NCBI GenBank assembly: GCA_017541025.1
Contig: JAFXZY010000002.1
Location: 1 to 64,000, forward strand
Reading direction: 5' to 3'
Source of the DNA: Bacteroidaceae bacterium
Lineage (GTDB): Bacteria > Bacteroidota > Bacteroidia > Bacteroidales > Bacteroidaceae
DNA: 64,000 nucleotides
Under the pieces are notes generated by a model. The model did no database searches. It was not told the DNA's origin and saw only the letters and a program-made list of their open reading frames with translations. Of this stretch, positions 1-12,728 are shown piece by piece; within the stretch, counting starts at the first letter, position 1; each line of letters begins with the position of its first letter. The translations under genes and the position numbers were made by a program.

Positions 1-99
1 ATATTTTCTACATATGGCTCCTTTTGACATGTCACTGGTCAGATACTCGCGGAGTATCGCCAAACTTTCTTCATTCGATTTCTTTACATTCATACTCAT
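1..99 (-). CDS. Partial IS transposase N-terminus (HTH, orfA-like)
   Basis: The first 33 codons of a minus-strand reading frame run off the left edge of the window. Translation from the ATG at 99 gives a short polar start, then 'ESLAILREYLTSDMSKG' and 'ICRKY'. This resembles the helix-turn-helix beginning of IS3-type OrfA transposases in Bacteroidetes. A second in-frame ATG lies at 93. The assignment is pattern recognition on a short fragment. Other HTH proteins are possible. An IS end here would fit the accessory character of the genes that follow. Confidence 0.5.
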   Translation of the reverse strand, partial: MSMNVKKSNEESLAILREYLTSDMSKGAICRKY

Positions 100-155
100 A
101 AGTTGAACTCAATTTTTGTCAACTTATTCAGTACAATACAATATCTACAATAGGC

Positions 156-1055
156 ATGCCTGTTGTGCAAGCATCGGGAACTTCAGGTGCTATTGCACGG
201 AAAGAACGTGAGGGGGACGATGGCACAGAGTTAGTTTCGGAGACACTATCGAGCGGTGTGTTGGAGAGTCATCCTTCATTTGGTGAGGTAATGATGCATA
301 CATCGCATGGTTCACACACGTCGCATGGTTCACATAGTTCACATAGTTCTCATACATCTTCTTCACACACATCGCACAGTTCCTCTAGTTCTGGCGGTGG
401 TTCTGGTGGAAGTGGAAATGGCACAAAGATAGCAGCAGCATCTTTGGGGGCTCTTGCTGGCGGAGCGGCATTGACATACCTTATACATTATATTATAAAG
501 ACTCATAAGAAGCACGTGGCCTCACGTAAGACTGAGATAAATCGGCCTTATGCTTACGCCAGCAGAGACCTTTCGGAGGGCATATTTGGCAATGATGTTG
601 ACATCATGACGGTTTTACTTGTCCAGAATGAAGTGTTGGGAAATAGGTCATTCTCTCGAAAATGGTCACACTTCAAATACAACAGTAAGGTAACGCGTTC
701 TGTAAAACGGATGCAAGCTCGCATGGGACGAAAGCGAACAGGCAAGGCTTCTACGTCCTTTCTCATAAACCTTCAACAGTGGAAAGATACTAGAAGTAAA
801 TTGATTAATACTGCTTCAAAAGATTCATTGGATATTACGGAAGACCGTAATGCACTTTTGGCTGTAGCAATTCTACTAGTTGAGAAAGGATATTTGAAGA
901 GTTATGATGCCGATGAAATCATGAATGATAATGAGAAGTCTAAGATAGTTGAAGCTTATTATGCTTTCCTCCGTCGCAATCAATTGCCAAAAACAACATT
1001 TATTGATGAACAAAAGCTGAGAATGTTAAACTCTTTGCCCAATAAGCAGAAATGA
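156..1055 (+). CDS. hxsA: His-Xaa-Ser repeat protein (HxsA-like), predicted Hxs cassette substrate
   Basis: This 299-residue protein is the likely substrate of the two radical SAM enzymes downstream. Residues 48-76 form a His-Xaa-Ser tract with His at 48, 51, 54, 57, 60, 63, 66, 71 and 74. A Ser/Gly linker follows, then a single hydrophobic segment at about 92-114, then a basic stretch and a soluble C-terminal region of about 180 residues. The basic residues after the membrane segment suggest the HXS side faces out and the C-terminus faces the cytoplasm (inference). The arrangement of repeat protein, HxsD and two radical SAM proteins matches the known hxsABCD cassette. The start at 156 is the first ATG in frame. 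ATG 291, just before the repeats, is a possible alternative. The stop overlaps hxsD (ATGA). The chemical product is not known to me. Confidence 0.75.
   Translation: MPVVQASGTSGAIARKEREGDDGTELVSETLSSGVLESHPSFGEVMMHTSHGSHTSHGSHSSHSSHTSSSHTSHSSSSSGGGSGGSGNGTKIAAASLGALAGGAALTYLIHYIIKTHKKHVASRKTEINRPYAYASRDLSEGIFGNDVDIMTVLLVQNEVLGNRSFSRKWSHFKYNSKVTRSVKRMQARMGRKRTGKASTSFLINLQQWKDTRSKLINTASKDSLDITEDRNALLAVAILLVEKGYLKSYDADEIMNDNEKSKIVEAYYAFLRRNQLPKTTFIDEQKLRMLNSLPNKQK
297..383 (+). repeat. HXS-coding repeat tract
   Basis: The 9-nt units encode His-Thr-Ser, His-Gly-Ser or His-Ser-Ser. There are seven uninterrupted units, two extra Ser codons, then two more units. The units are similar but not identical at DNA level, so copy number could vary by slippage or recombination. 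Confidence 0.8.
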
Positions 1056-1378
1056 AAACTTTTACAGTAGAGTCAGACCATAGAGTCATCGTTGAGATAG
1101 ATTCTGGTATCTATTCCAAAGATGTTGTTGCCAAAGTGGTGTATTGGCTTAGTCGCGACTTTACCATTATGCAGAGTTTAGAGAGTAGTGTTTGGACACT
1201 CTCTCTTGAAAGTCACGATATGGTGAATTGGGATGATGTCAAGGAGCGTTTGTCACAATTACTGACTGATTATCAAATGCGAGAGGTGATAACAGCAGAG
1301 ACAAAGGACATCAAGAATATCCTTTATATCAAGGCTTTTGCTAATGTTGAGGAGTTGCTGTCAAATGAGGAAGTATAA
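1052..1378 (+). CDS. hxsD: His-Xaa-Ser system protein HxsD
   Basis: This 108-residue soluble protein has no cysteines and no signal peptide. The segment 'GIYSKDVVAKVVYWLSRDF' near residues 19-37 fits the HxsD family, the small conserved partner of the two Hxs radical SAM proteins. Its biochemical role is not established to my knowledge. A leader-binding or scaffold role is inference. It overlaps hxsA by 4 nt and hxsB by 14 nt, so the four genes are almost certainly one translationally coupled operon. Confidence 0.75.
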   Translation: MKTFTVESDHRVIVEIDSGIYSKDVVAKVVYWLSRDFTIMQSLESSVWTLSLESHDMVNWDDVKERLSQLLTDYQMREVITAETKDIKNILYIKAFANVEELLSNEEV

Positions 1379-2771
1379 GCTCTTACCTTTCAAGTTCACA
1401 AGGTTCAAGAACAAGGAACTGTTGGTGAGCGAAGTGGGTGATTTCGTGCTGACTCCAAATGGTACGGTCAAAAGGATCATTGACGGCAGTATTAATCCCA
1501 AATCAGAACTCTATAAAGACTTGTTGGGAAAAAACATCATCTGCATAGATTACAATCCATTGCTTCAAGATATTTTGGCGACCCGTCTACGAACTAAGAA
1601 ATCGTTTCTCAATGGTACAGCCCTTCATATCTTTATACTTACGTTGCGTTGCAACCAAAAATGCATATATTGCCAAGCTTCAAGCCAGGACGAAGGTGTA
1701 AGCACGAAATCTATCAGTAAGGAATCACTTTGCCACGCAATCGATTTGATGCTTCAATCCCCCAATCCTTGCGTAACGATGGAATTTCAAGGTGGAGAAT
1801 CGTCATTGGTGCCAGAATTGGTGGAATATGCGATTATGGAAACAGAAAAACGTAATGCAACGCTTGGCAAGGACGTCAAATATGTGCTTTGCACGAATCT
1901 AATAAGCCTAAATCCAAAGCTGTTAGATTTGTGCAAGCAGTACCACGTATTCGTATCCACTTCTCTTGACGGGCCAGAGTTCATACATGACCATAACCGG
2001 GGAGTGAAGGGTAGTTATCAATGCTTTAAACAGAATCTGGCAATTGTTCGTGAAGAGTTGGGGCAAGGTCGAGTTTCCCCTTTGATGACAACGTCTGAAT
2101 TTTCATTGGACTATCCAAGAGAAATAGTTGATTCGTATCTTGAACTTGGATTTCGAAATATGTTCCTTCGTCCGTTGAATCCTTACGGCAGAGCTAAAGA
2201 CAATGAAAACTGGGATTTATACTATGACCACTTCATCAAATTCTATAAGGAGGCTTTGGGATATATTCTGAAACTCAATCGAGAAGGAAATTATTTCAGA
2301 GAGGATTTTACAGCGATGCTAATGAAGAAGATACTCACGCCATTTCCTATTGGTTTTGTTGATCTTCAGTCACCGGCTGGTATCATCAACAGTGTTATAG
2401 TTTATGGTTATGATGGATATGTCTATTGTTCAGACGAATCCCGTATGATGGCAGAGGCAGGGGATTACACTTTTCGACTTGGGCGTGTTGAAAGCACATA
2501 CCAAGAGTTATTCTGTGGCAAGAAAGCGCGTCAACTGTCAGAAGTTTGGGCAACAGAGTATATTGCTGGTTGCTCTGACTGTGCATACTTTCAATATTGT
2601 GGAGCAGATCCTGTTCGCAACTATTCCACGCAGGGAGACTGGTATGGTCATAGGCCAACAAGCCTATTTTGCCGTTTCCATAAAGAAGTATTTGATTACT
2701 TGTTTACGATGATTGATGAACACGGCAATGATGTTTTGCCAATATTTCTATCTTGGGCCTATGACAGATAA
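1365..2771 (+). CDS. hxsB: His-Xaa-Ser system radical SAM maturase HxsB
   Basis: This 468-residue radical SAM protein has the 4Fe-4S motif CxxxCxxC at C96, C100 and C103, followed by 'GGES', the usual SAM-contact region. The C-terminal part is SPASM/twitch-like: a Cys in 'YVYCSDE', the cluster 'CSDCAYFQYC', and a last 'FCRFH' about 25 residues later. This suggests auxiliary Fe-S clusters as in peptide-modifying enzymes. Expected role: radical modification of the HXS repeats. The frame is open upstream to a TTG at 1338. ATG 1365 gives a natural N-terminus and a 14-nt overlap with hxsD. The stop overlaps hxsC. Confidence 0.8.
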   Translation: MRKYKLLPFKFTRFKNKELLVSEVGDFVLTPNGTVKRIIDGSINPKSELYKDLLGKNIICIDYNPLLQDILATRLRTKKSFLNGTALHIFILTLRCNQKCIYCQASSQDEGVSTKSISKESLCHAIDLMLQSPNPCVTMEFQGGESSLVPELVEYAIMETEKRNATLGKDVKYVLCTNLISLNPKLLDLCKQYHVFVSTSLDGPEFIHDHNRGVKGSYQCFKQNLAIVREELGQGRVSPLMTTSEFSLDYPREIVDSYLELGFRNMFLRPLNPYGRAKDNENWDLYYDHFIKFYKEALGYILKLNREGNYFREDFTAMLMKKILTPFPIGFVDLQSPAGIINSVIVYGYDGYVYCSDESRMMAEAGDYTFRLGRVESTYQELFCGKKARQLSEVWATEYIAGCSDCAYFQYCGADPVRNYSTQGDWYGHRPTSLFCRFHKEVFDYLFTMIDEHGNDVLPIFLSWAYDR

Positions 2772-3627
2772 ATTCCAAAAAGGAGATAACGATAACACAT
2801 TGTTCATCACCTCTGCATGTACTAATCGTTGCATCATGTGCTGTCAGCCGCCTACAGACGTAGATGACTCTGATAGGTTGTTGGAACGAAATCTCCGATT
2901 GATAGAAACTGCTAATACTGACACAGATTATGTCTGTATAACAGGGGGTGAACCTACACTTATTGAAGAAAAGCTATTCTTATACATACAAGCGATAAGA
3001 AAGAGAATGCCTGATGCAACTATTCATCTGTTGACCAATGGACGGCGATTTGCTGACAATGATTATACAATTCATTTTGCAAAGATGGCAGATAGTCATT
3101 TCGTCCTTGGCATACCTCTTCATTCGGATAATCCCATTGACCATGAAAGAATAGCTGGAGCAAAAGGTTCATTTTTCGAGACAATGAAAGGGCTTCACAA
3201 TTTGGGCATACTTGGCTATGAGATTGAACTGCGTGTGATAATAATGAAAGATAACTATAAGAGGCTTCCACAGATAGCTGAGTACATAACATTGAATCTT
3301 CCGTTTGTCTCTCAGGTGTCGTTTATGGGTTTGGAGGTTACTGGCTGTGCTGATAGAAACTATCATCGTGTATGGGTTGAACCAATTGAGTTTGACCCAT
3401 ATCTAACGGATGCTATTCGTTATTTAGAATGCTGTAACTTCTCTGCAAAGGTATTCAACATTCCGCATTGCCTTCTTTCTGTTATTCTTTGGCCCTATGC
3501 CTGTAGGTCTATTTCTACATGGAAGAAAACAAATCTGCTACAATGTAAGAATTGCAGTCAGTTGATGAATTGCTGTGGCGTTTTTTGTACATCGAAAAAA
3601 TACAGTTCCTTTATTCATGCAATATGA
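2761..3627 (+). CDS. hxsC: His-Xaa-Ser system radical SAM maturase HxsC
   Basis: This 288-residue protein is the second radical SAM enzyme of the cassette. CxxxCxxC lies at C20, C24 and C27 and is followed by another Cys and 'QPP', typical of HxsC. 'TGGEPT' follows. The C-terminus has 'CKNCSQLMNCCG', a candidate auxiliary cluster site. The chosen ATG at 2761 overlaps the hxsB stop by 11 nt. ATG 2716 in the same frame would add 15 residues. With HxsB it presumably acts on the HXS protein. Why the system needs two enzymes, and whether they act in sequence or as a pair, is open. It ends the operon, and the next gene has its own promoter. Confidence 0.75.
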   Translation: MTDKFQKGDNDNTLFITSACTNRCIMCCQPPTDVDDSDRLLERNLRLIETANTDTDYVCITGGEPTLIEEKLFLYIQAIRKRMPDATIHLLTNGRRFADNDYTIHFAKMADSHFVLGIPLHSDNPIDHERIAGAKGSFFETMKGLHNLGILGYEIELRVIIMKDNYKRLPQIAEYITLNLPFVSQVSFMGLEVTGCADRNYHRVWVEPIEFDPYLTDAIRYLECCNFSAKVFNIPHCLLSVILWPYACRSISTWKKTNLLQCKNCSQLMNCCGVFCTSKKYSSFIHAI

Positions 3628-3665
3628 TCTTCCCATTATTATTCATGTATTCAGGCTCCAAACTA

Positions 3666-3763
3666 TTTGCAACTTTTTTGTGATAATTATCCAACTTAAT
3701 TCCGAGGAAAAAGTAGCTTAAATAAAAATTTTTCTAAGTTGTTTATTCCTCCTCCTGAATAAA
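3666..3763. repeat. Intergenic repeat family, copy 1
   Basis: This is the first of three similar sequences found after hxsC, after the abi gene and after rhuM. Shared features are TGATAATTAT (weak in copy 2), an inverted pair (AACTTA ... TAAGTT) around AGTAGCTTAAATAAA, and a CTCCTCCT-(A/G)AATAA end. The 3' end, CCTCCTCCTGAATAAA, recurs at about 15206-15221 as a partial fourth copy. Confidence 0.7.
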
Positions 3764-3846
3764 CCCTATTTGACGTCTGGGCTTTGAGCGTACGGGACAG
3801 ATTTTTACTAAAAATGCATATACAACTGTATTTTTCTCTAGAAAAG

Positions 3847-3878
3847 TTTGTTCTTTTTAAGAAAACTCCATACCTTTG
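3847..3878 (+). promoter_or_regulatory. Bacteroidetes-type promoter for the abi leader RNA
   Basis: The -33 TTTG is at 3847-3850 and the -7 TACCTTTG at 3871-3878, with 20 bp between them, as in the Bacteroides consensus. Transcription would start near 3885, about 60 nt before the abi start codon. Confidence 0.75.
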
Positions 3879-3884
3879 CAGTGT

Positions 3885-3934
3885 TAGTTCCAGCCGAGCC
3901 TCTTTACAATGCTTAAATAGGCTGGGCTTTTTTT
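3885..3934 (+). ncRNA. Short structured leader RNA ending in an intrinsic-terminator hairpin (abiF-motif candidate)
   Basis: Just after the promoter, AGCCGAGCCT (3892-3901) can pair with AGGCTGGGCT (3919-3928) with one G-G mismatch. A run of seven T follows (3928-3934), ending 12 nt before the abi ATG. Most transcripts would thus be about 50 nt long, with read-through needed to express abi from this promoter. Comparative genomics has described a structured RNA, the abiF motif, upstream of Abi_2 genes, and HEPN/ncRNA toxin-antitoxin roles have been proposed for such pairs. I cannot confirm a covariance-model match here. A plain transcription attenuator is the main alternative. Confidence 0.6.
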
Positions 3935-3946
3935 ATGTTATAGGAT

Positions 3947-4846
3947 ATGGCAAAAGTTCATTTTAATAAGACATACAAAAATCCAGATGAGTTAGTAAGG
4001 CTATTACAGTCTCGAGGTCTAAACATCATGGACAAAAATAGAGCAGAGCGTTACATAGAAAGCATAGGTTATTATCGTTTGTCTGCATATATGTATCCGC
4101 TTCTTGAGATACCCAAAAGCAATCATCTGTTCAAAAATGGAACAGCATTTGACAAAGTGATTATGCTTTATCGTTTCGATAAAAAACTGCGTATCTTGTT
4201 GTTTAATGAAATTGAGAAAATTGAAGTTGCTGTGCGAGAGGCTGTTATGAATTTGACCGCAGAAAGAACGGGAGATATGTTTTGGTTAACAAATCCCGTT
4301 CATTTTCACGACCAAACTATTTACGGCAATAGCATGAACTTGTTAAAGAAAGAATATGATCGTTCAACCGAGGATTTCATAGAACATTTTAAACAAACCT
4401 ACACAGAGCAATTCCCACCAGCATGGATTCTTGGTGAACTTTTGCCGATGGGTAGTGTCAATATATATTATCGTAATCTTAAGGACAAGACATTGAAAAA
4501 ACATATTGCAAAACGCTTTTATTTGCATGCGCCAGTATTTGAGTCTTGGCTTTCTGTACTTACCCTAACAAGAAATGCTTGTTGTCACCATTCTCGGGTA
4601 TGGAATAAAGTTAATAAGATTATCCCTAACGACATGAGGGGGATGACGCGTCCTTGGATAACGCTTCCATCAGATAAGCGTAAGATATACTACAACATCT
4701 GCATTATCAAATATTTTTTGGATGTTATTTCTCCCAATAACGATTTGCTTGCTAAATTGCGGTGGCTTTTTGTGGACTTTCCAGAGATTGACCTCAATGC
4801 TCTTGGCTTTCCTAAGGGGTGGGAGATGGAGCCACTTTGGAGTTGA
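3947..4846 (+). CDS. Abi_2 (AbiD/AbiF) family abortive-infection HEPN protein
   Basis: This 299-residue soluble protein is of the Abi_2 family. The N-terminal 'YYRLSAYMYPL' and the following 'LYRFDKKLR' with 'LFNEIEKIEVAVR' are characteristic of AbiD/AbiF proteins. The HEPN-type RX4H motif is R209-N-A-C-C-H214, so an RNase-like activity is expected from family knowledge. It is preceded by its own promoter and a terminator-ended leader RNA and flanked on both sides by copies of the same intergenic repeat, as a self-contained defence or toxin cassette would be. Length is normal for the family and no truncation is seen. The start at 3947 lies just after the leader terminator. An upstream small open frame over the leader is not needed. 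Confidence 0.85.
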   Translation: MAKVHFNKTYKNPDELVRLLQSRGLNIMDKNRAERYIESIGYYRLSAYMYPLLEIPKSNHLFKNGTAFDKVIMLYRFDKKLRILLFNEIEKIEVAVREAVMNLTAERTGDMFWLTNPVHFHDQTIYGNSMNLLKKEYDRSTEDFIEHFKQTYTEQFPPAWILGELLPMGSVNIYYRNLKDKTLKKHIAKRFYLHAPVFESWLSVLTLTRNACCHHSRVWNKVNKIIPNDMRGMTRPWITLPSDKRKIYYNICIIKYFLDVISPNNDLLAKLRWLFVDFPEIDLNALGFPKGWEMEPLWS

Positions 4847-4855
4847 TATTTATTT

Positions 4856-4973
4856 ATGATGGTTTTCTAACTTAATTTCGAGCAAGAAATAGCTTAAATA
4901 AAAAATTTTTTAAGTTGATTTTTCTCCTCCTAAATAAGATGATGTAAGATGTAAGAGGGAAGAAGTAAGATGT
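4856..4973. repeat. Intergenic repeat family, copy 2
   Basis: This is the second copy, starting directly after abi. It carries AACTTAATTTCGAGCAAG, TAGCTTAAATAAA, TTAAGTTGATTTTTCTCC and a tail with GATGATGTAAGATGTAAGAG that copy 3 shares almost exactly. Confidence 0.75.
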
Positions 4974-5028
4974 TTTTGGTGTGACCTATCTGACCTTTGC
5001 TTTATTTCATAACATAATGGGCTTACCT

Positions 5029-5060
5029 TTTGGTGGGCTCATAATTTATTTGTACCTTCG
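5029..5060 (+). promoter_or_regulatory. Promoter of the rhuM-like gene
   Basis: The -33 TTTG is at 5029-5032 and the -7-like TACCTTCG (one mismatch to TAnnTTTG) at 5053-5060, with a 20-bp spacer. A start site near 5067 places the ATG at 5080 a few bases downstream and argues against the upstream in-frame start at 4981. Confidence 0.6.
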
Positions 5061-5079
5061 CATATCCAAAACAAAAGAT

Positions 5080-6078
5080 ATGGCACAGAAAGATAATAAA
5101 CTGATACTATATAAAGATATTGAAGGTCAGGTTAGCATGAATGTGGTGTATGCTGATGAGGACCTGTGGTTGACGCAGGCTCAGTTGGTGGAGATATACC
5201 AATCCAGCAAATCCAACGTTAGCGAACATCTGACTAACATCTTTAAAGACAAAGAGTTAGACAAAGATTCAGTTGTTCGGAAAATCCGAACAACTGCTTC
5301 TGACGGCAAAAATTATCCCACTTTGCACTATAATTTGGATGTTGTTATAGCCTTGGGCTATCGCGTTCAGTCACAGATTGCTGTACGCTATCGTCGTTGG
5401 GCTACTCGCATTCTTCATGAGTTTATCCAAAAGGGCTTTGTGATGGATGATGAACGACTTAAGCAAGGAGGAAACCGCTACTTTAAGGAATTGCTTCAGC
5501 GCATACGTGACATCCGTAGTAGTGAACGTAATTTCTATCAGCAGGTAACGGATATCTATGCTACGTCTACTGATTATGACCCTCGCTCCAAGATGACAAA
5601 ACTCTTCTTTGCCACCGTTCAGAACAAGATGCATTATGCTGTTCACGAACATACGGCAGCAGAGTTGATTTACCAACGCGTGGATAACGAGAAGCCTTTT
5701 GTGGGTATGACTAATTTTAAGGGGAATTATGTGACGCGCGACGATGTAAAAGTTGCCAAGAACTACCTTACGGAGATAGAGTTACAACGTTTGAACTTAC
5801 TCACCTCACAGTTCTTAGATTATGCAGAGTTTCAGGCCCTTGAGCAGAATCCTATGAGAATGGTGGACTGGATTCAGGCTTTAGACGATCAAATCTTGCG
5901 ACTGCGCAAAAATATCCTTGAGGGTAATGGTAGCATCTCACATCAGGAGGCTATAGAAAAGGCGGAACGCGAGTTTGAAATTTACCGCGAACGTGAAATG
6001 CGCTTGTTGGAAAGCGACTTTGACAAAGCTGTGAAAGCGTTGATGCAGAAGGAAACCGACGATGGTGATAAAACCTGA
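5080..6078 (+). CDS. RhuM family protein (virulence RhuM, DNA-binding-like)
   Basis: This 332-residue cytoplasmic protein is of the RhuM family. Landmarks are the N-terminal 'LWLTQAQLVEIYQSSKSN', an HTH-like segment followed by 'VSEHLTNIF'; 'YNLDVVIALGYRVQS' and 'RYRRWATRILHEFI' in the middle; and a C-terminal acidic and basic helical tail. Proteins of this type are common on genomic islands and prophages, next to restriction and defence genes. The Salmonella namesake was linked to virulence, and the molecular function is not firmly known. The frame extends upstream to 4981, but that part would encode a hydrophobic stretch crossing the promoter, so I chose ATG 5080. It is flanked by repeat copies 2 and 3. 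Confidence 0.8.
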   Translation: MAQKDNKLILYKDIEGQVSMNVVYADEDLWLTQAQLVEIYQSSKSNVSEHLTNIFKDKELDKDSVVRKIRTTASDGKNYPTLHYNLDVVIALGYRVQSQIAVRYRRWATRILHEFIQKGFVMDDERLKQGGNRYFKELLQRIRDIRSSERNFYQQVTDIYATSTDYDPRSKMTKLFFATVQNKMHYAVHEHTAAELIYQRVDNEKPFVGMTNFKGNYVTRDDVKVAKNYLTEIELQRLNLLTSQFLDYAEFQALEQNPMRMVDWIQALDDQILRLRKNILEGNGSISHQEAIEKAEREFEIYREREMRLLESDFDKAVKALMQKETDDGDKT

Positions 6079-6177
6079 ATTGTCCTTCGCTTCATTCCCC
6101 TTTTCTGAATGATTCGTGGAGATGGGGAAATGGATCATGGGGATTATCTGAATGAAAGAAAGGTGAGCAAGCCAATT

Positions 6178-6310
6178 TTTGCAGCTTATTTGTGATAATT
6201 ATTTAAGTTGTTTCCGAGCAAGAAATAGCTTAAATAAAATATTTTTCAAGTTGATTTTTCTCCTCCTAAATAAGATGATGTAAGATGTAAGAGGGAAGAA
6301 GGAAGATGTT
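6178..6310. repeat. Intergenic repeat family, copy 3
   Basis: This is the third copy, about 100 bp after rhuM. It matches copy 1 at its left end (TTTGCAGCTTATTTGTGATA) and copy 2 through its right end (AAGTTGATTTTTCTCCTCC, then the GATGTAAGATGTAAGAGGG tail). The three copies bracket abi and rhuM. Confidence 0.75.
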
Positions 6311-6380
6311 TATTACTCTAGAAAATTCAGGCTTCAAACTCAAGTGATATTTTTAGTGCCTTTTAGGGTATGCCCAAAAT

Positions 6381-6434
6381 GGCTCGAGCCATTGCCCCTT
6401 TTGGCTAGAGCCAATGCCCTATTTGGCTCTAGCC
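6381..6434. repeat. Three palindromic 10-mers at exact 22-bp spacing
   Basis: GGCTCGAGCC starts at 6381, GGCTAGAGCC at 6403 and GGCTCTAGCC at 6425. Each is a perfect or near-perfect palindrome, and they are joined by similar 12-bp spacers rich in T and C. The period of 22 bp is close to two helical turns. Confidence 0.7.
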
Positions 6435-6453
6435 AGCTTTTTGGAGACCTTAA

Positions 6454-6516
6454 TGACAATTGACAATTGATAATTGACAATTGACAATTGATAATGAATA
6501 ATTAATAATTGGCAAC
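6454..6516. repeat. Simple tandem repeat of the TGACAAT/TTGATAAT type
   Basis: Overlapping units of GACAATTGA and GATAATTGA repeat several times in this AT-rich stretch. It resembles the short tandem arrays found in other gene gaps of this window. Confidence 0.7.
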
Positions 6517-6601
6517 TGAAAATCGTTATTGAATAACGTGATTGAAGCGAAAATTCTTTCCAAAAATCAATTCACCAAAAATGGGGGCAAAAACAGGGGA
6601 C

Positions 6602-6652
6602 TTAACTCGATACATGTAATGAATTAACTCGATACATGTCATGAGTTAACTC
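6602..6652. repeat. Second 22-bp-period array, unit TTAACTCGATACATGT
   Basis: The units begin at 6602, 6624 and 6646. The first two share TTAACTCGATACATGT exactly, and the third keeps only TTAACTCA. The period equals that of the array at 6381-6434 although the sequences differ. The rest of the gap at 6079-6842 includes a duplicated block: GTGGAGATGGGG with GATTATCTG near 6115-6151, and a similar version near 6683-6716. Confidence 0.7.
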
Positions 6653-6766
6653 ACCGCATTATACACGTAAATTCACATTACGTGGAGATAGGGAATAAAT
6701 CATGAAGATTATCTGGATAAAGTTAAAGTGACTATAGTCAAAGCTAAACCTTTTTTGAGAAATATT

Positions 6767-6796
6767 TTTGTGTTTTACAATTATTTCCTAAATTTG
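6767..6796 (+). promoter_or_regulatory. Promoter of the first BspA-like gene cluster
   Basis: TTTG is at 6767-6770 and TAAATTTG at 6789-6796, with an 18-bp spacer, slightly shorter than usual. It lies about 45 bp before the ATG at 6843. The next two genes are close behind and probably share it. Confidence 0.65.
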
Positions 6797-6842
6797 CAGC
6801 ATTAAACCTCTTTCAATGAGAAATACTAATACTTAAAACAAT

Positions 6843-9800
6843 ATGAAACATTTTATCTTAACGGTTTTGGCCTTGTTTGCCGGGGTTTTGGCAACAAAGG
6901 CACAAACATTGGAGTACTATCTTGACGAGGAGAACCAGATAGTTTATCAGTACCATCCAGGGACAGGATATGCTGAGGTCGCTCACGGAGGAAGTTATGA
7001 AAGTGATTACTTTCCTCAGTCGTATGTGCATCATAACAAGTTAGGGGAAGTGCTCAGGATTATCGAGGGTTTCGAGGTGGATGGTCAGTGGTATACGGTA
7101 CAGAAAATTGGCGGTCATGCATTCTTTGGATGCTCGCATGTCAAGACCATTTACATACCGGAAACCATTCGTAGCATCGGCAGCATTACGTTTGCAGGAT
7201 GCACGGAAGTTGAGGATGTTTACTGTTACGTGAATCCCCGCAAACTGACTTGGGAAACAGGCAGTTATTATGATATTTATTCGTTTAAAAAACAACGAGG
7301 AACACGGTGGCATGTCCATGAGTTTTATGCCGAATATTATGCGGAAAAATTCCTGAACAACAATGTGACTTTCGTCGGGGATTTGGTGTATGATGCGGAG
7401 CCTCTTCCGCAGGGAATCGAGTCGGTTTTCCGTGCATATGATGCTGAGAATGGTATACTGATTGCGGGCGGAAACCAGAACTGGAAGCTGTCGTTAGCCT
7501 ATAACGATGGCAGCACGATTAGTTATGTTGGTGACTCATATTGGGATCAGCAGGCGCTTTACTTCAGGCTCGGGAGTGGCACCAGCAGTTGGAAGGATTT
7601 GTTGTTGACATCCGACTACGTTGTGCATGGCACTGTCCGTAAGATTCTGGTCGTTGGAGCTGGGGGTATTCACATGCTTCGCTGCCAGCTTCCTGATGGC
7701 ACTTGGATCGAGAAAGAGTACTATGCTGACGGGGATTATCAGGAGTATGAGATAGTGTTTCCTAAACCGCAAAGGTACGACGGTCCGGTCGAATTTCACG
7801 TGTATTCCGAGACACCTTTCGTACTGCAAAGCATCTTCGTTGTCATGGAAGAAGAGAATGAAGATGTGGTGTATTCTACGTTCAAAGGCTACGATGAACA
7901 GGAGGTGAATCCGGGGGTAAACCGTTGGGGAAATGTACTGACTGAGGAGGGAAACATCTGGTGGATTAATGTTACGAATTCCGCAGTAAGCATAACCTTT
8001 TCTTCGGTGGAATTTGATGGCACAAACAGTACTCCTTGCATCGTGACTTACCACCAAAATGAGCCGTATAATATATGGTTTACGAGCCGCTTCAAGTACG
8101 AGGGCCCAGTCAAGAAAGTCTTGGTACATTCGGCGGGAAACATTCAGGGAATGCAGGTGACAATCCAGGACAAGAAGGCCGGGAAATCCTATAGTTCTTC
8201 GACCGAAGCACACCCGACGGACTACTTCGGAGACTATGTATTTGAGTTCGCGGAATGCCCGGAAATCGAGGATGGACAGTTTACAGTTCACGTCTATGGA
8301 GAAGGTGCTATTTTCATCAATAGTATCACGATTGTCAAGCGTGAAGAGACACCGGAACTGCCACAGGGAAAGTGTGGTGACAACCTCACATATCAGCTGA
8401 GTTATATTCCTGGAGAGACGACGCTTTCGGAGGACATGATGTCCCAGATTCCTGCCATGAAACTCACGATAAGCGGGTCGGGAAACATGTGGGATTTCGA
8501 TGACGAATGGAGCGGAAGTGACAACATGGTTCCATGGCTTCCGTACCGCCAAAACATAACTGTTCTTGACCTGCCTTCCGGACTGAAGTCGGTAGGAAAT
8601 AATGCCTTTTCGCGGATGTGGAACTGTGAATTTCCCGCCCTTCCTTCGGGGATTGAGCGGATAGGACAGTCTGCATTTTACAACGATTATTTCGGTGGAG
8701 ACCTGGTGCTTCCTTCGGGGCTTTTGCGGATAGAATCCAATGCATTTAAGGCCGTGAATGGTGCGACAAACGTGTACATAGGTCCGAAGGTTTCTGTGAT
8801 ACAAACCGGTGCATTGAACAGCATGTATTTCACGGATTGCTACTACGTAGATAAAGGGAATCCGACCTACAGTAGTGAGGGGAATTGTGTCTATGAAGTG
8901 GCGACAAAGACGGTCATAGCCGGCGGAAAGAAGAGCACGATTCCCACGGATGCCAAGTGCATAGGTCCGCGAGCCTTCGAGGGCGTTCACCGTGCCACTC
9001 TTGACCTTCCTTCCACGCTTTTAGAGATAGGAATGAATGCTTTTTATAACTGCGACATCACCGAGATTCGCATCCCAGACAAGGTGACTTCCATAGGGCA
9101 TTCTGCACTGTCGAGGTGTCAAAAACTGTTAACTGTTTATGTCGGGAAGTCCATGAAAAGTATAGGACGGACGGTATTCTATGACAGTTCGAATATCCTT
9201 GATATTTCACTGGCGTGTGACCCGGAAAACCTGACATGGGAGAAGGCGTCAAGTTATGATGATGAATCCTTTGGACCTAATGGCAAGACTACGGCGCATG
9301 TCCGTGCGGAAATGTTAGATGGTTGGGTTACGAAATTCGCGTATTTGAATCTGACTTTCAAGGGAGATTTGGGTGACGAGATTCAGCCGATTGAGGAGGA
9401 GAAACGTGTGGATATTGCGGCGCTGAAGGGGCAAGATTTGACCAACAATACCGTGGATAATGTGTATTATAATCTACCGGCTTCGACTGGCAGCGGGTTG
9501 ATCAATGATGCTATAGTTATCGGGGCTGTTACGGACATGAGCCTTGTCGGGAGTGGTGAACCTGGCTCGGCAGAAGTGGCGGAAAACTTTAAAGGAGTTA
9601 TCCTCAAAGTCAACGGAAAGGGCACCATCACCATTGACTCAGGTGCCTTTGGAAACCGCCTGCGGTTGGCTGTACGCATAGGCAATGGTACGCCAGTCAT
9701 CATACGGGAAACGGGTCGGCAATCCAATATGATTTCATACAATGTTCAGACCGAAACCTTCGTATACATCTATGCAGTACCTGCCTCGGCCTCTGTACGA

Positions 9801-10019
9801 GGCTGGATGTACCGTGCAGAGGGTGTAGATGAGGATTCTGTCGTCATTTATGGTATAACAATCGAGCCTGGAGCATACGACCCTGATAGCATCAACGCTA
9901 TCGACAACCACGATAGCCCCATAGATTCTGCGACATATGATCTCAACGGACGCAGAATTCAAGGATTGCCCCGAAAAGGTATCGTTATCCAGAACGGCAG
10001 GAAAGTGATAGTTAGATAA
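6843..10019 (+). CDS. BspA-like LRR surface protein with T9SS-type tail (paralogue 1)
   Basis: This is a 1058-residue exported protein. Residues 1-20 are a signal peptide, with cleavage predicted before Gln (TKA|Q). An LRR_5-type segment follows ('AFFGCSHVKTIYIP', 'IRSIGSITFAGC'), then two tandem modules of about 150 residues, then 'CGDNLTYQL' leading into a second LRR region. A conserved module with 'NTVDNVYYNL' and 'GTITIDSGAFG' precedes the C-terminal 'YDLNGRRI...KGIVI...K' tail, which resembles a T9SS type A sorting signal. BspA-family proteins act as adhesins or surface binding proteins; the ligand here is unknown. It heads a tandem of three paralogues. The last 50 nt or so of coding sequence are essentially identical to those of paralogue 2. 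Confidence 0.85.
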   Translation: MKHFILTVLALFAGVLATKAQTLEYYLDEENQIVYQYHPGTGYAEVAHGGSYESDYFPQSYVHHNKLGEVLRIIEGFEVDGQWYTVQKIGGHAFFGCSHVKTIYIPETIRSIGSITFAGCTEVEDVYCYVNPRKLTWETGSYYDIYSFKKQRGTRWHVHEFYAEYYAEKFLNNNVTFVGDLVYDAEPLPQGIESVFRAYDAENGILIAGGNQNWKLSLAYNDGSTISYVGDSYWDQQALYFRLGSGTSSWKDLLLTSDYVVHGTVRKILVVGAGGIHMLRCQLPDGTWIEKEYYADGDYQEYEIVFPKPQRYDGPVEFHVYSETPFVLQSIFVVMEEENEDVVYSTFKGYDEQEVNPGVNRWGNVLTEEGNIWWINVTNSAVSITFSSVEFDGTNSTPCIVTYHQNEPYNIWFTSRFKYEGPVKKVLVHSAGNIQGMQVTIQDKKAGKSYSSSTEAHPTDYFGDYVFEFAECPEIEDGQFTVHVYGEGAIFINSITIVKREETPELPQGKCGDNLTYQLSYIPGETTLSEDMMSQIPAMKLTISGSGNMWDFDDEWSGSDNMVPWLPYRQNITVLDLPSGLKSVGNNAFSRMWNCEFPALPSGIERIGQSAFYNDYFGGDLVLPSGLLRIESNAFKAVNGATNVYIGPKVSVIQTGALNSMYFTDCYYVDKGNPTYSSEGNCVYEVATKTVIAGGKKSTIPTDAKCIGPRAFEGVHRATLDLPSTLLEIGMNAFYNCDITEIRIPDKVTSIGHSALSRCQKLLTVYVGKSMKSIGRTVFYDSSNILDISLACDPENLTWEKASSYDDESFGPNGKTTAHVRAEMLDGWVTKFAYLNLTFKGDLGDEIQPIEEEKRVDIAALKGQDLTNNTVDNVYYNLPASTGSGLINDAIVIGAVTDMSLVGSGEPGSAEVAENFKGVILKVNGKGTITIDSGAFGNRLRLAVRIGNGTPVIIRETGRQSNMISYNVQTETFVYIYAVPASASVRGWMYRAEGVDEDSVVIYGITIEPGAYDPDSINAIDNHDSPIDSATYDLNGRRIQGLPRKGIVIQNGRKVIVR

Positions 10020-10058
10020 TACCGTTTTCAATATAATAGAAATAAATATAAAAAGAAT

Positions 10059-12728
10059 ATGAAACAGTTGAAAGTCATTTTAACAGTGCTATGTGCACTG
10101 GTAATTACTGCCGTAAATGCCCAGAAAAAGACATGGGATTTTGTCGCGTTCGATGAGCAGAAATCGACGCTTGTTAGTTATGGAGGCGTCGAGAACTGGC
10201 ACCTGCAAGCCCCAAATGACGGGAGCACAATCGGTGTGACGGCTTATGAGTATATGCACGAGAAGTGTATCCTTCTTGCAGTGAGAAACAGCACGACAAA
10301 TGTGCAGGAACTGAGGTTGACCTCCGACTTCACATTGCAAGGAAAGGTGCGGCAGATTATCTTGAAAGCCGGCGGATGGTTGCAGTTCATTGCTTATCTG
10401 ATGCCGAACAACATGATGAAAGAAAGCAACCGCAACACAAGCGGCAGTTGGGACGAATATGTCATAGATTTCGAGGAGCCAGTCGAACTGGACGGACCAC
10501 TGCAACTGTTCCTCGTTACAGCCTCTCCTGTCGCGCTTCAGAGCCTGACAATCGTAATGGGTGATGGCGATGATTCCGTGACTTCTACGTTCAATGCTTG
10601 GCAGAATCCGCAGCCCACTTCCGACGGAGGAATATATGGAATGATGAGGACAAACGAGAGCAATGATTGGGAGGGATTCCTCAACAATACCGACGTAAGC
10701 GTGCAGTATACCTCGATAGGTTCGGAAACCGGTAGCGGTACGAGTTGCATCATGACATACTTGCAAAACGGGAACTATTTCCTAAACATGTCGAACAATT
10801 TTCCCTACGAAGGAACGGTTGAGAAAATCATTGTTCGTGCAGCAGGAAATCTGATGGGAATAGAAGCCGTCATCAGCGAAGGGTACAGCACGGATGCCTA
10901 CCATGCTGGCACGCAAGCTTGGTCTACAGCCGAGTTCACGGACTACGTAATTTGGTGCACGAACTGCCCCGAATTCGAGGAAGCAGCTATCCAGCTTACT
11001 ATCTACGGAGAAGGGGCAATGTATATCCATAGTGTCAAGATCGTTCGCCATGAAAACTTGCCGGAACTGCCCAGCGGAAAGTGCGGCGATAACCTCGAAT
11101 GGGCCCTGGAATACTTACCCGGAGAGACGACTGATGACCACGACAACAACACCTCGATTCCAGCCGTGAAACTGGTGATAACCGGTACAGGGGATATGTA
11201 CGACTACCAAAGCGAATATGCCGAATCACCCAATGCGGCTCCTTGGGCAAAGTACAAATGGAACATTACCCATGTTGACCTGAGCGACGATATCACTCAT
11301 ATCGGAGCTTATTCCTTCCCGAGGTACTGGAACCTAAACATTTACGACCCACTTCCTTCCCAACTCCATAGCATAGGAGCCTGGGCTTTCTATAACATAT
11401 ATATAGGAAGAGAACTCCGCATTCCCGATGGAGTTATCAGCGTTGGAGCAGGGGCATTCGAGGCGGTAAACGGGGTGACAGACATATATATTCCTGCTGG
11501 ACTGACCGACATAGGTTCCGAGGGATTCGCGGGTATGTATAATGCGGAATACTTCCATGTAGATGCCGAAAATCCGGTCTTTACGGACGAGGGATATGCA
11601 CTGTCAAACCGTCAGACAAAGACTCTCATCGCCAGTACACGAAAAAGTGAGATTCCCGATTGGATTGAGACTATCGGTCCGCGAGGTGCGAACAACGTTT
11701 ATCGCGAAACTATTACCTTGCCCGACGGGCTGAAGTCCATAGGACAATACGCGTTTTGGTATGCCAAAATCACCGAGATCCGCATCCCGAACTCCGTGGA
11801 AACCATCTCAAGCTATGTCTTCCAAGGATGCAGCAGCCTCCTCACCGTATATATCGGAAAAGGGGTAAAAAGTATAGGTCGCGATGCCTTTGAATATTGC
11901 CGCAATATCCTCGACATCTATTGCGAAGCCGATCCCGAACATCTGGCATGGAGTCATGGAAATTATGAGAATCAAGCCTTCATGGCCGATGGCAAGACAC
12001 TGATGCATGTCAGGGCAGAAGACCTGGAAACTTGGCAGACAAAGTTCGACTTCCTGAATGTCACGTTTGTGGGCGACCTCGCAACGGGAATTGAGCCGAT
12101 TTATGATATGAAGACCATAGATGTTGAAAGCCTTCAGTCAGAGGATTTGAGCGATAACACCGTGGATAATGTGTACTACAATCTGAACCCAGAACGCGGC
12201 TGTTTCTACCAGGACGGCGGACTGGTTATCGGCCAGAGAACCGACATGTCTGCCATAGGAAACGGCACACCTGGTTCGGCAGAAGTGGCAGAGAACTTCA
12301 ACGGAATCATTCTGAAAGTCATGGGAAAGGGTACCATAACCATTGACTCACGTGTGTTCGGACGTGACCTGAGACTCGCAGTGAGAATTGGCAACGGTAC
12401 GCCTGTAATCTCGCCGGATTGGGACCGCAGAGACCGCCAGATTTCATACAACGTCTCGCAGGAAACCTACGTTTATATCTATGCTGTTGGCCAAGGTGCC
12501 TTGGTACGGGCTTTCGGTAACAGTGAACCGGAAGTGGGTGACGATTATGTTGCCATTTATGGCATAACAATCGAACCAGAAGCATACGACCCTGATAGTA
12601 TCAACGCTATCGAAAACCATGACAGCCCCACAGACTCTGCGACATATGACCTAAATGGACGTAGAATTCAAGGATTGCCCCGAAAAGGTATCGTTATCCA
12701 GAACGGCAGGAAAGTACTTATTCGATAA
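10059..12728 (+). CDS. BspA-like LRR surface protein with T9SS-type tail (paralogue 2)
   Basis: This 889-residue paralogue of the preceding gene starts 39 bp after it and is probably co-transcribed. The signal peptide ends VNA|Q. It lacks the N-terminal LRR block of paralogue 1 and begins directly with the two roughly 150-residue modules. 'CGDNLEWALEY' then introduces LRR units such as 'IRIPNSVETISSYVFQGC', followed by the 'NTVDNVYYNL' module and the 'YDLNGRRIQGLPRKGIVI' tail. The 3' end of the gene is nearly identical to paralogue 1 at DNA level while the middle has diverged. This points to recombination or gene conversion of the sorting-tail region. Confidence 0.85.
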   Translation: MKQLKVILTVLCALVITAVNAQKKTWDFVAFDEQKSTLVSYGGVENWHLQAPNDGSTIGVTAYEYMHEKCILLAVRNSTTNVQELRLTSDFTLQGKVRQIILKAGGWLQFIAYLMPNNMMKESNRNTSGSWDEYVIDFEEPVELDGPLQLFLVTASPVALQSLTIVMGDGDDSVTSTFNAWQNPQPTSDGGIYGMMRTNESNDWEGFLNNTDVSVQYTSIGSETGSGTSCIMTYLQNGNYFLNMSNNFPYEGTVEKIIVRAAGNLMGIEAVISEGYSTDAYHAGTQAWSTAEFTDYVIWCTNCPEFEEAAIQLTIYGEGAMYIHSVKIVRHENLPELPSGKCGDNLEWALEYLPGETTDDHDNNTSIPAVKLVITGTGDMYDYQSEYAESPNAAPWAKYKWNITHVDLSDDITHIGAYSFPRYWNLNIYDPLPSQLHSIGAWAFYNIYIGRELRIPDGVISVGAGAFEAVNGVTDIYIPAGLTDIGSEGFAGMYNAEYFHVDAENPVFTDEGYALSNRQTKTLIASTRKSEIPDWIETIGPRGANNVYRETITLPDGLKSIGQYAFWYAKITEIRIPNSVETISSYVFQGCSSLLTVYIGKGVKSIGRDAFEYCRNILDIYCEADPEHLAWSHGNYENQAFMADGKTLMHVRAEDLETWQTKFDFLNVTFVGDLATGIEPIYDMKTIDVESLQSEDLSDNTVDNVYYNLNPERGCFYQDGGLVIGQRTDMSAIGNGTPGSAEVAENFNGIILKVMGKGTITIDSRVFGRDLRLAVRIGNGTPVISPDWDRRDRQISYNVSQETYVYIYAVGQGALVRAFGNSEPEVGDDYVAIYGITIEPEAYDPDSINAIENHDSPTDSATYDLNGRRIQGLPRKGIVIQNGRKVLIR

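Follow-up and report, generated by a model that had tools for sequence, protein, structure and literature searches.

A probable AbiF RNA-antitoxin/HEPN-toxin pair located between repeats in a Bacteroidaceae genome

A 64,000-nucleotide stretch of DNA from a Bacteroidaceae bacterium (contig JAFXZY010000002.1, positions 1 to 64,000; hereafter the window) contains an Abi_2 gene that follows a short promoter-bearing leader and is flanked by repeats. The question raised by this locus is whether the leader encodes an RNA that restrains the Abi_2 protein, and whether the unit moves as a cassette, as a preliminary description of the sequence had proposed. The source genome (3.28 Mb in 95 contigs) is fragmented and about 84% complete, and its near relatives are mainly gut and rumen Bacteroidales. 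The features of the locus are as follows.

3674-3762 (+), flanking repeat, upstream copy (core)
3847-3878 (+), promoter of Bacteroidales type (TTTG, 20 nt, TACCTTTG), from the sequence pattern, with the -7 box conserved in leaders
3883-3934 (+), predicted antitoxin RNA of about 50 nt, its start placed by the promoter and its end by the T-run
3890-3926 (+), abiF RNA motif RF03085 (47.8 bits, cut-off 37)
3889-3895/3920-3926 (+), P1 of the abiF RNA, from pair counts
3897-3899/3911-3913 (+), P2 of the abiF RNA, from pair counts
3903-3904/3908-3909 (+), P3, possible apical mini-stem, from pair counts with thinner evidence
3928-3934 (+), T-run 3' of P1, seven T, a T-rich stretch being found also in aligned leaders
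3947-4846 (+), abiF-type Abi_2 HEPN toxin gene, 299 aa, RX4H motif R209-H214
4850-4975 (+), flanking repeat, downstream copy, 88-nt core (4850-4937) plus tail
5080-6078 (+), RhuM-family gene (PADLOC candidate PDC-S05), between repeats 2 and 3
6186-6311 (+), flanking repeat, third copy

Identification of the Abi_2 protein and of the upstream RNA

The product of the 3947-4846 gene matched PF07751 (Abi_2) with 177.6 bits (cut-off 25.6) and was labeled AbiD by PADLOC, and no NCBIfam model matched it. PDB entry 8vz6_A was aligned over residues 3-298 (E 2.7e-115) with the active-site stretch kept, R209 and H214 of the window protein being aligned with R210 and H215 of 8vz6. The RX4H motif had been read correctly in the preliminary description: a HEPN RX4-6H active site (R209-N210-A-C-C-H214) is present and is nearly invariant, with R at position 209 in 88 and H at position 214 in all of 89 aligned full-length homologues. 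According to the review PMC12737573, 8VZ6 is PbAbiF with its antitoxin RNA, one RNA being bound per monomer, and AbiF is described as an ancestor of Cas13. The PbAbiF R210A+H215A double variant is cited as inactive in PMC12373285.

Covariance-model analysis of the whole 64-kb window with cmscan and all Rfam families identified the abiF RNA (RF03085) at 3890-3926 with an E-value of 9.9e-6, exactly where such an RNA had been proposed upstream of the Abi_2 gene, and this was the only Rfam match over cut-off in the 64 kb. On a 1.4-kb stretch alone the E-value of the match was 2.2e-7. The score lies above the gathering score of the family, the P1 and P2 stems display compensatory changes, and the RNA is located upstream of an Abi_2 gene, all of which indicate membership in RF03085. 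The identification of the locus as an AbiF system follows from the Rfam match, the Abi_2 score, the PADLOC label and the match to 8vz6.

The Rfam match, the covariation described below, the similarity to PDB 8vz6 and the precedent of AbiF-Cd in Clostridioides difficile together support the proposal of a two-component RNA-protein toxin-antitoxin (TA) or defence unit, and we estimate the probability that the unit is an AbiF RNA-antitoxin/HEPN-toxin pair at roughly 0.88. By analogy with the studied relatives, the abiF RNA very probably restrains the protein encoded at 3947-4846.

Promoter, T-run and read-through

The consensus promoter that had been placed at 3847-3878 was found at exactly those positions as TTTG-N20-TACCTTTG, which we take to be the promoter form of the Bacteroidales, or of the phylum. 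The pattern TTTG-N19-21-TANNTTTG occurs seven times in the 64 kb, while 0.88 occurrences are expected, and seven occurrences were reached in none of 100 shuffles. Among 74 homologous leaders, 72 have a perfect -7 box at a similar spacing. A scan for sigma-70 promoters and terminators returned the same counts for the window as for shuffles, and a terminator at 3928 was absent from its output.

The T-run was likewise located as described earlier, ending 12 nt before the ATG at 3947. Its position directly after P1 suggests that the RNA hairpin probably serves as its own intrinsic terminator. Since 12 nt between the T-run and the ATG is too short for a second promoter, the abi gene would be reached by read-through. 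As judged from sequence only, an RNA and a toxin gene are thus placed under one promoter with a terminator between them, which is the arrangement of type III TA systems of the AbiF kind.

Conserved fold of the abiF RNA

A leader scan of 107 sources found the motif 104 times in 99 of these, giving 36 unique sequences, 35 of which were aligned (alignment A2). The insert-bearing L094 was left out of the unique motifs before A2, and L043, whose contig starts inside the gene, was left out of the leader counts. The scan pattern missed L037, L038, L041 and L158 (another motif type), L030 (contig end), and L073, L074 and L106 (inserts). A second alignment of 44 distinct RNAs (A3) was composed of A2 and nine further rows, among them L037, L038, L041 and L158, and the five insert-bearing RNAs and L030 stood outside it. 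The conclusion on the fold was the same with A3 as with A2, and one compensatory change in P2 was gained.

A 10-bp, near-perfect stem (3892-3901 with 3919-3928) had been described in the leader. This stem is real, with nine of ten positions complementary and one G-G mismatch, and it is the minimum free energy (MFE) fold of 3883-3935, with an energy of -16.6 kcal/mol (z -2.76) that was matched in 2 of 200 shuffles; the best fold of the window RNA that holds P1 and P2 (-13.0 kcal/mol) is 3.6 kcal/mol worse. It is not, however, the best-conserved fold, and the homologous leaders, in which compensatory changes are indeed present, favor P1 and P2, in another register, and, with thinner evidence, P3. 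The MFE stem of the window RNA is the best fold also in L051, and in none of the other 33 RNAs of the 35-row alignment.

In the 35 rows, 94.0% of the cells are paired in the Rfam-type fold (91.8% in P1 alone), changes on both sides are found in six of seven P1 pairs, and the covariation score is 0.281 against 0.099 in shuffles, none of 500 being as high. Slid versions of this fold reached 41.7% paired cells at most. With 44 rows, 94.5% of the cells are paired, both-side changes are found in 7 of 10 pairs, including an exchange of A-U to C-G in P2 (5 of 44 rows), and none of 500 shuffles was as high on all five measures. RNAalifold recovered the P1 and P2 stems from the 35 rows except for the P1 pair at columns 16-41, which is unpaired in 16 of them.

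By comparison, 69.8% of the pairs of the stem named earlier hold in 35 rows and 69.7% in 44, and its pair 3897-3923 is present in 3 of 35 and 8 of 44. Its covariation score (0.134 and 0.118 with 35 and 44 rows, against 0.094 and 0.084 in shuffles, none of 500 as high) does not reach half the score of the Rfam-type fold. The stem exceeds the shuffles both in this score and in paired cells, partly because columns are shared with P1. The functional fold is therefore probably, as far as the alignments indicate, the Rfam-type P1/P2 structure and not the lowest-energy stem; the latter is disfavored by the pair counts as a conserved fold and is kept as a competing or terminator fold. A conserved two-state switch was considered and rejected, as five or more P1/P2 pairs are already part of the best fold in 31 of 35 RNAs, and so was a wobble pair between P1 and P2 (columns 17-35), a standard pair being found there in just 11 of 35.

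The covariation also refines the abiF RNA by two elements that are absent from the Rfam structure line, namely a probable apical mini-stem and one additional base pair in P1. The latter covaries (AU 23, UG 9, CG 4, GC 2, UA 2 and other 4 in 44 rows). In the mini-stem P3, the U-A pair at 3903-3909 is present in 43 of 44 rows and the pair at 3904-3908 is UA in 25, CG in 17 and broken in 2 (19, 15 and 1 in 35 rows); P3 thus depends on one switching pair, and related sequences inflate these pair counts. Three bases of the apical loop are variable, and the aligned leaders also contain invariant unpaired bases.

These results bear on the possibility that the leader is a cis-acting attenuator only, in which abi expression is held down by the hairpin and T-run, perhaps until relieved by a signal, and the RNA makes no contact with the protein. 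Such a role would fit the stable alternative hairpin that immediately precedes the T-run, and RCd22, the RNA of AbiF-Cd, acts partly via premature termination according to PMC12373285. The covarying stems and the invariant unpaired bases, however, exceed what a terminator needs, and in the studied relatives the RNA binds the protein.

Linkage of RNA and toxin gene among relatives

Scanning of genome contigs found 247 relatives. Among the best 80 of these 247, 79 close homologues have DNA upstream of the gene, and each of them has an abiF RNA there; the RNA is uninterrupted in 74 leaders and bears an insert in five. The inserts are about 30 nt long and located in the apical loop in L073, L074 and L106, and about 80 nt long inside the abiF RNA in L094 and L111. 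Folding indicated that P1 and P2 are kept wholly or partly in the five insert-bearing RNAs, most weakly in L094. Four of these five loci have an open toxin frame, and the fifth, L094, has a stop in it. The insert shared by L094 and L111 is rich in hairpins, has a short duplicated stretch on both sides and by eye resembles a REP-like mobile element.

The variable loop, and the longer inserts in or near it in 5 of 79 loci, might be taken to suggest a guide-RNA system, in which AbiF would be steered to a target RNA by the abiF RNA or by the variable apical loop, in the manner of Cas13; PMC12737573 describes AbiF as an ancestor of Cas13. This explanation appears extremely unlikely: a variable loop of 3 nt would be too short to guide, and the solved relative is described in PMC12737573 as an antitoxin complex. 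The locus encodes a 299-aa Abi_2 protein, and no CRISPR-like array was found among the repeat families of window positions 1-12000, whereas Cas13/type VI systems combine two HEPN domains in one chain with a CRISPR array.

A second abiF motif precedes the single toxin gene of L067, L077, L078, L086 and L099, at a distance of up to 400 nt. In several cases each of these tandem motifs has a promoter box of its own, and an apparent start of a lost first gene was seen in L067.

Within the genus, 14 homologues are full-length (250 residues or more aligned at no less than 46% identity), and 11 of them had an RNA match in front. Of the other three, G023:C18, which corresponds to L094 in length and location, carries the insert-bearing RNA at 30 bits, below cut-off, and G553:C287 and G522:C174 start at contig ends. 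No RF03085 match at an E-value of 0.5 or better was obtained for eight divergent Abi_2 loci (33-40% identity), and three further Abi_2 loci at 36-38% identity (G053, G037 and G006) do have an abiF RNA; judged by these sequence matches, the abiF RNA marks a part of the Abi_2 family and is not universal in it. Mobile elements were considered as the home of the window gene and rejected: viral contigs yielded one relative, and 62 phage and 418 plasmid records hold distant relatives, below 60% identity except for one of each.

abiF RNAs without an intact toxin gene

In 139 genomes of the genus, 56 abiF RNA matches were found in 44 genomes. The 45 RNAs with enough DNA were classified with an HMM built from 89 toxin proteins: 14 have an intact gene directly downstream (counting G047:C11, which meets the contig end just before the end of the gene), 16 have fragments or broken genes, and 15 have no HMM match within 1.27-1.5 kb downstream, although the first toxin codons are still there in one of the latter (G547). 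Thus, no intact toxin gene accompanies 31 of the 45 RNAs that could be assessed. The other 11 of the 56 matches were left unclassified owing to a cut gene or too little downstream DNA; among these, G022, G516:C94, G043:C17, G561:C21, G026, G506 and G562 have no toxin match in the 15 to 790 nt present.

The RNA is identical to one that precedes an intact gene in 19 of the 31 loci in which the toxin is broken or missing. The sister genome G051 has the same RNA sequence as the window and has lost 515 nt of the toxin gene. The maintenance of the RNA in these 19 loci argues further against the attenuator explanation, which we regard as improbable in comparison with an RNA antitoxin.

The asymmetry between RNAs without a toxin and toxins without an RNA would be that expected of an antitoxin and its toxin. 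It is weakened by the difference in target size (37 nt versus 900 nt), by a detection bias, as only preserved RNAs are found, and by the promoter boxes, which are imperfect in 7 of the 15 loci with no toxin match. The promoter box is perfect in all 14 intact loci, in 13 of 14 assessable fragment loci (the boxes of 2 of the 16 being cut by contig ends) and in just 8 of the 15 loci with no toxin match. Selection of orphan RNAs as anti-toxins was considered; given the last count, relics explain at least part of them, and many toxin-less abiF RNAs may be relics. A literature search for orphan antitoxins gave nothing matching among the matches listed.

The window locus itself could also be a decayed, non-functional TA relic, given that decay is common nearby, as seen in the G051 deletion, in a frame break near the end of the toxin gene in the 98%-identical L043 copy, and in the broken or empty loci counted above. 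The window nevertheless retains the promoter, the RNA, the T-run, the full 299-aa frame and the intact RX4H motif, which makes decay of this copy very unlikely.

Comparison with known systems and proposed mechanism

A closely similar system is PbAbiF with its RNA, from a Prevotellaceae bacterium (PDB 8vz6; Zilberzwige-Tal et al.), with which the window locus shares full-length protein similarity and an abiF-type RNA partner. The host locus and the flanking repeats differ. The sequence comparison with PbAbiF covered the protein; the window RNA has a P1 of CCAGCC/GGCUGG and a strong alternative fold.

AbiF-Cd/RCd22 of C. difficile prophages is similar in its organization. According to PMC12373285, AbiF-Cd is toxic and is neutralized by its RNA in cis and in trans via direct binding, and the two share a promoter, with a terminator before the gene and read-through to the toxin. 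The window resembles it in the RNA placed upstream, the shared promoter, the terminator, the expected read-through and the HEPN motif. In contrast, RCd22 has two abiF motifs and a separate terminator (PMC12373285), whereas the window has one motif followed directly by the T-run, and the copies in C. difficile phages share about 30% identity with the window protein.

ToxIN and related type III TA systems also have an RNA antitoxin ahead of the toxin gene, a terminator between the two and direct neutralization of the protein by the RNA. According to PMC12373285, they differ in the structures of toxin and antitoxin, with tandem RNA repeats and pseudoknots in ToxIN; tandem antitoxin repeats of the classical ToxIN kind are not found in the window, which has a single motif.

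The following mechanism is proposed. Transcription from the one promoter would yield the short abiF RNA, and the hairpin and T-run would stop most transcripts, leaving the RNA in excess, with rare read-through producing the Abi_2 mRNA. As in PbAbiF and AbiF-Cd, AbiF would dimerize via its HEPN domains, the resulting ribonuclease having R209 and H214 at its active site, and would be bound and silenced by abiF RNA, one molecule to each monomer. A drop in the RNA supply, such as that caused by a phage shutting off host transcription, would free AbiF to cut RNA and arrest the cell. The whole unit sits between repeats where similar modules seem to be exchanged.

The window locus would represent a minimal Bacteroidales example, with a single motif, near-fixed promoter spacing and a T-run directly after the motif, of a system that has been described as an ancestor of Cas13. 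Natural variants should be useful for testing, among them RNAs with inserts, RNA units in tandem and the many RNAs that lack an intact toxin.

Repeats flanking the module

On sequence grounds, the AbiF pair itself seems ordinary, and the exchange of repeat-bounded modules seems to be the open lead. The preliminary description had suggested from repeats on both sides that the unit moves as a cassette. The repeats do exist and seem to bound exchanged modules, but no mobilizing enzyme was found. Copies at 3674, 4850 and 6186, which differ by about 10-18%, flank the abiF module and the RhuM gene. Matches at E 1e-10 or better were found in 2 of 61 genomes, nine in the genome of the window and nine in G051, and at 1e-12 in 7 of 139 genomes when up to six candidates were scored per genome.

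The context of the repeat was inspected in 16 stretches from four genomes. By raw count, TA- or defence-like genes or their remnants were found in 8 of 9 intervals between neighboring repeat copies. The intervals contain:

Window (two intervals): abiF; RhuM
L140: RhuM
L139 (two intervals): deleted abiF; AAA_14/DUF4143 ATPase with a RhuM-start remnant
L242: HTH and Gp49/HTH TA-like genes and two small unnamed frames
L243: short ATPase-like remnant, judged by eye
L244: broken RhuM
L127: no frame of 80 codons

Eight other stretches have single repeat cores, so the repeat is not confined to TA- or defence-like modules:

L125: beside a RhuM-like start
L126: transposase
L141: HTH gene
L128, L129, L142, L143, L144: beside ordinary genes

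The abiF module is located beside a His-Xaa-Ser operon in the window and, by eye, at a sigma/anti-sigma-like locus in G051 and in L043, the stretch of which is cut at the gene. The G503 contig starts with the last abiF codons and then resembles the locus of the window with two differences, a remnant being found in place of RhuM and the first large downstream gene (6843-10019) being missing. Homology between the abiF contexts stops inside the repeats. Recombination at the repeats would be the simplest reading of these differing contexts; misassembly of repeats, given that these are metagenome-derived genomes, is a real alternative, though the three copies of the window are about 10-18% divergent.

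Integrons also consist of short modules, many of them TA-like, separated by short direct repeats, and the window is similar in this respect. It differs in that the abiF module has its own promoter and that no integrase over cut-off was found in its own genome, the best match to the integron integrase model TIGR02249 having 79.3 bits against a cut-off of 265 in this about 84% complete assembly. An integron was rejected on this basis and because the symmetry of the repeat, by eye, is inconsistent between copies. A literature search for repeat-flanked cassettes gave nothing matching among the matches listed.

We put forward only tentatively, as a reading with clearly less than even odds, that the 88-126-nt repeats are joints of an undescribed cassette system in a gut Bacteroidales lineage. 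The spaces between copies would hold TA or defence modules (abiF, RhuM, AAA_14/DUF4143 ATPase and HTH-type TA pairs), which would be swapped or moved between chromosomal sites by recombination at the repeats, with no integron integrase. If true, this would suggest intragenomic movement of modules without a known integrase.

Several further observations were made around the repeats. The last about 35 nt of the repeat (window 4938-4975; also seen in L011-L021) stand alone elsewhere in the genome, which points to a composite repeat. A transposase with an integrase core (rve, HTH_21), presumably IS3-like, lies directly before one repeat copy at 2133-3814 of L126. Tandem repeats are located between the third repeat and the next gene of the window, at 6454-6509 (14-nt units) and 6599-6642 (a 22-nt pair). 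The window region 156-3627 contains a His-Xaa-Ser (Hxs) peptide-modification operon with HxsD (TIGR03976), HxsB (TIGR03978) and HxsC (TIGR03977) over their cut-offs, and a His/Ser-repeat protein encoded before the Hxs genes at 156-1055, which has no family match, is likely their substrate.
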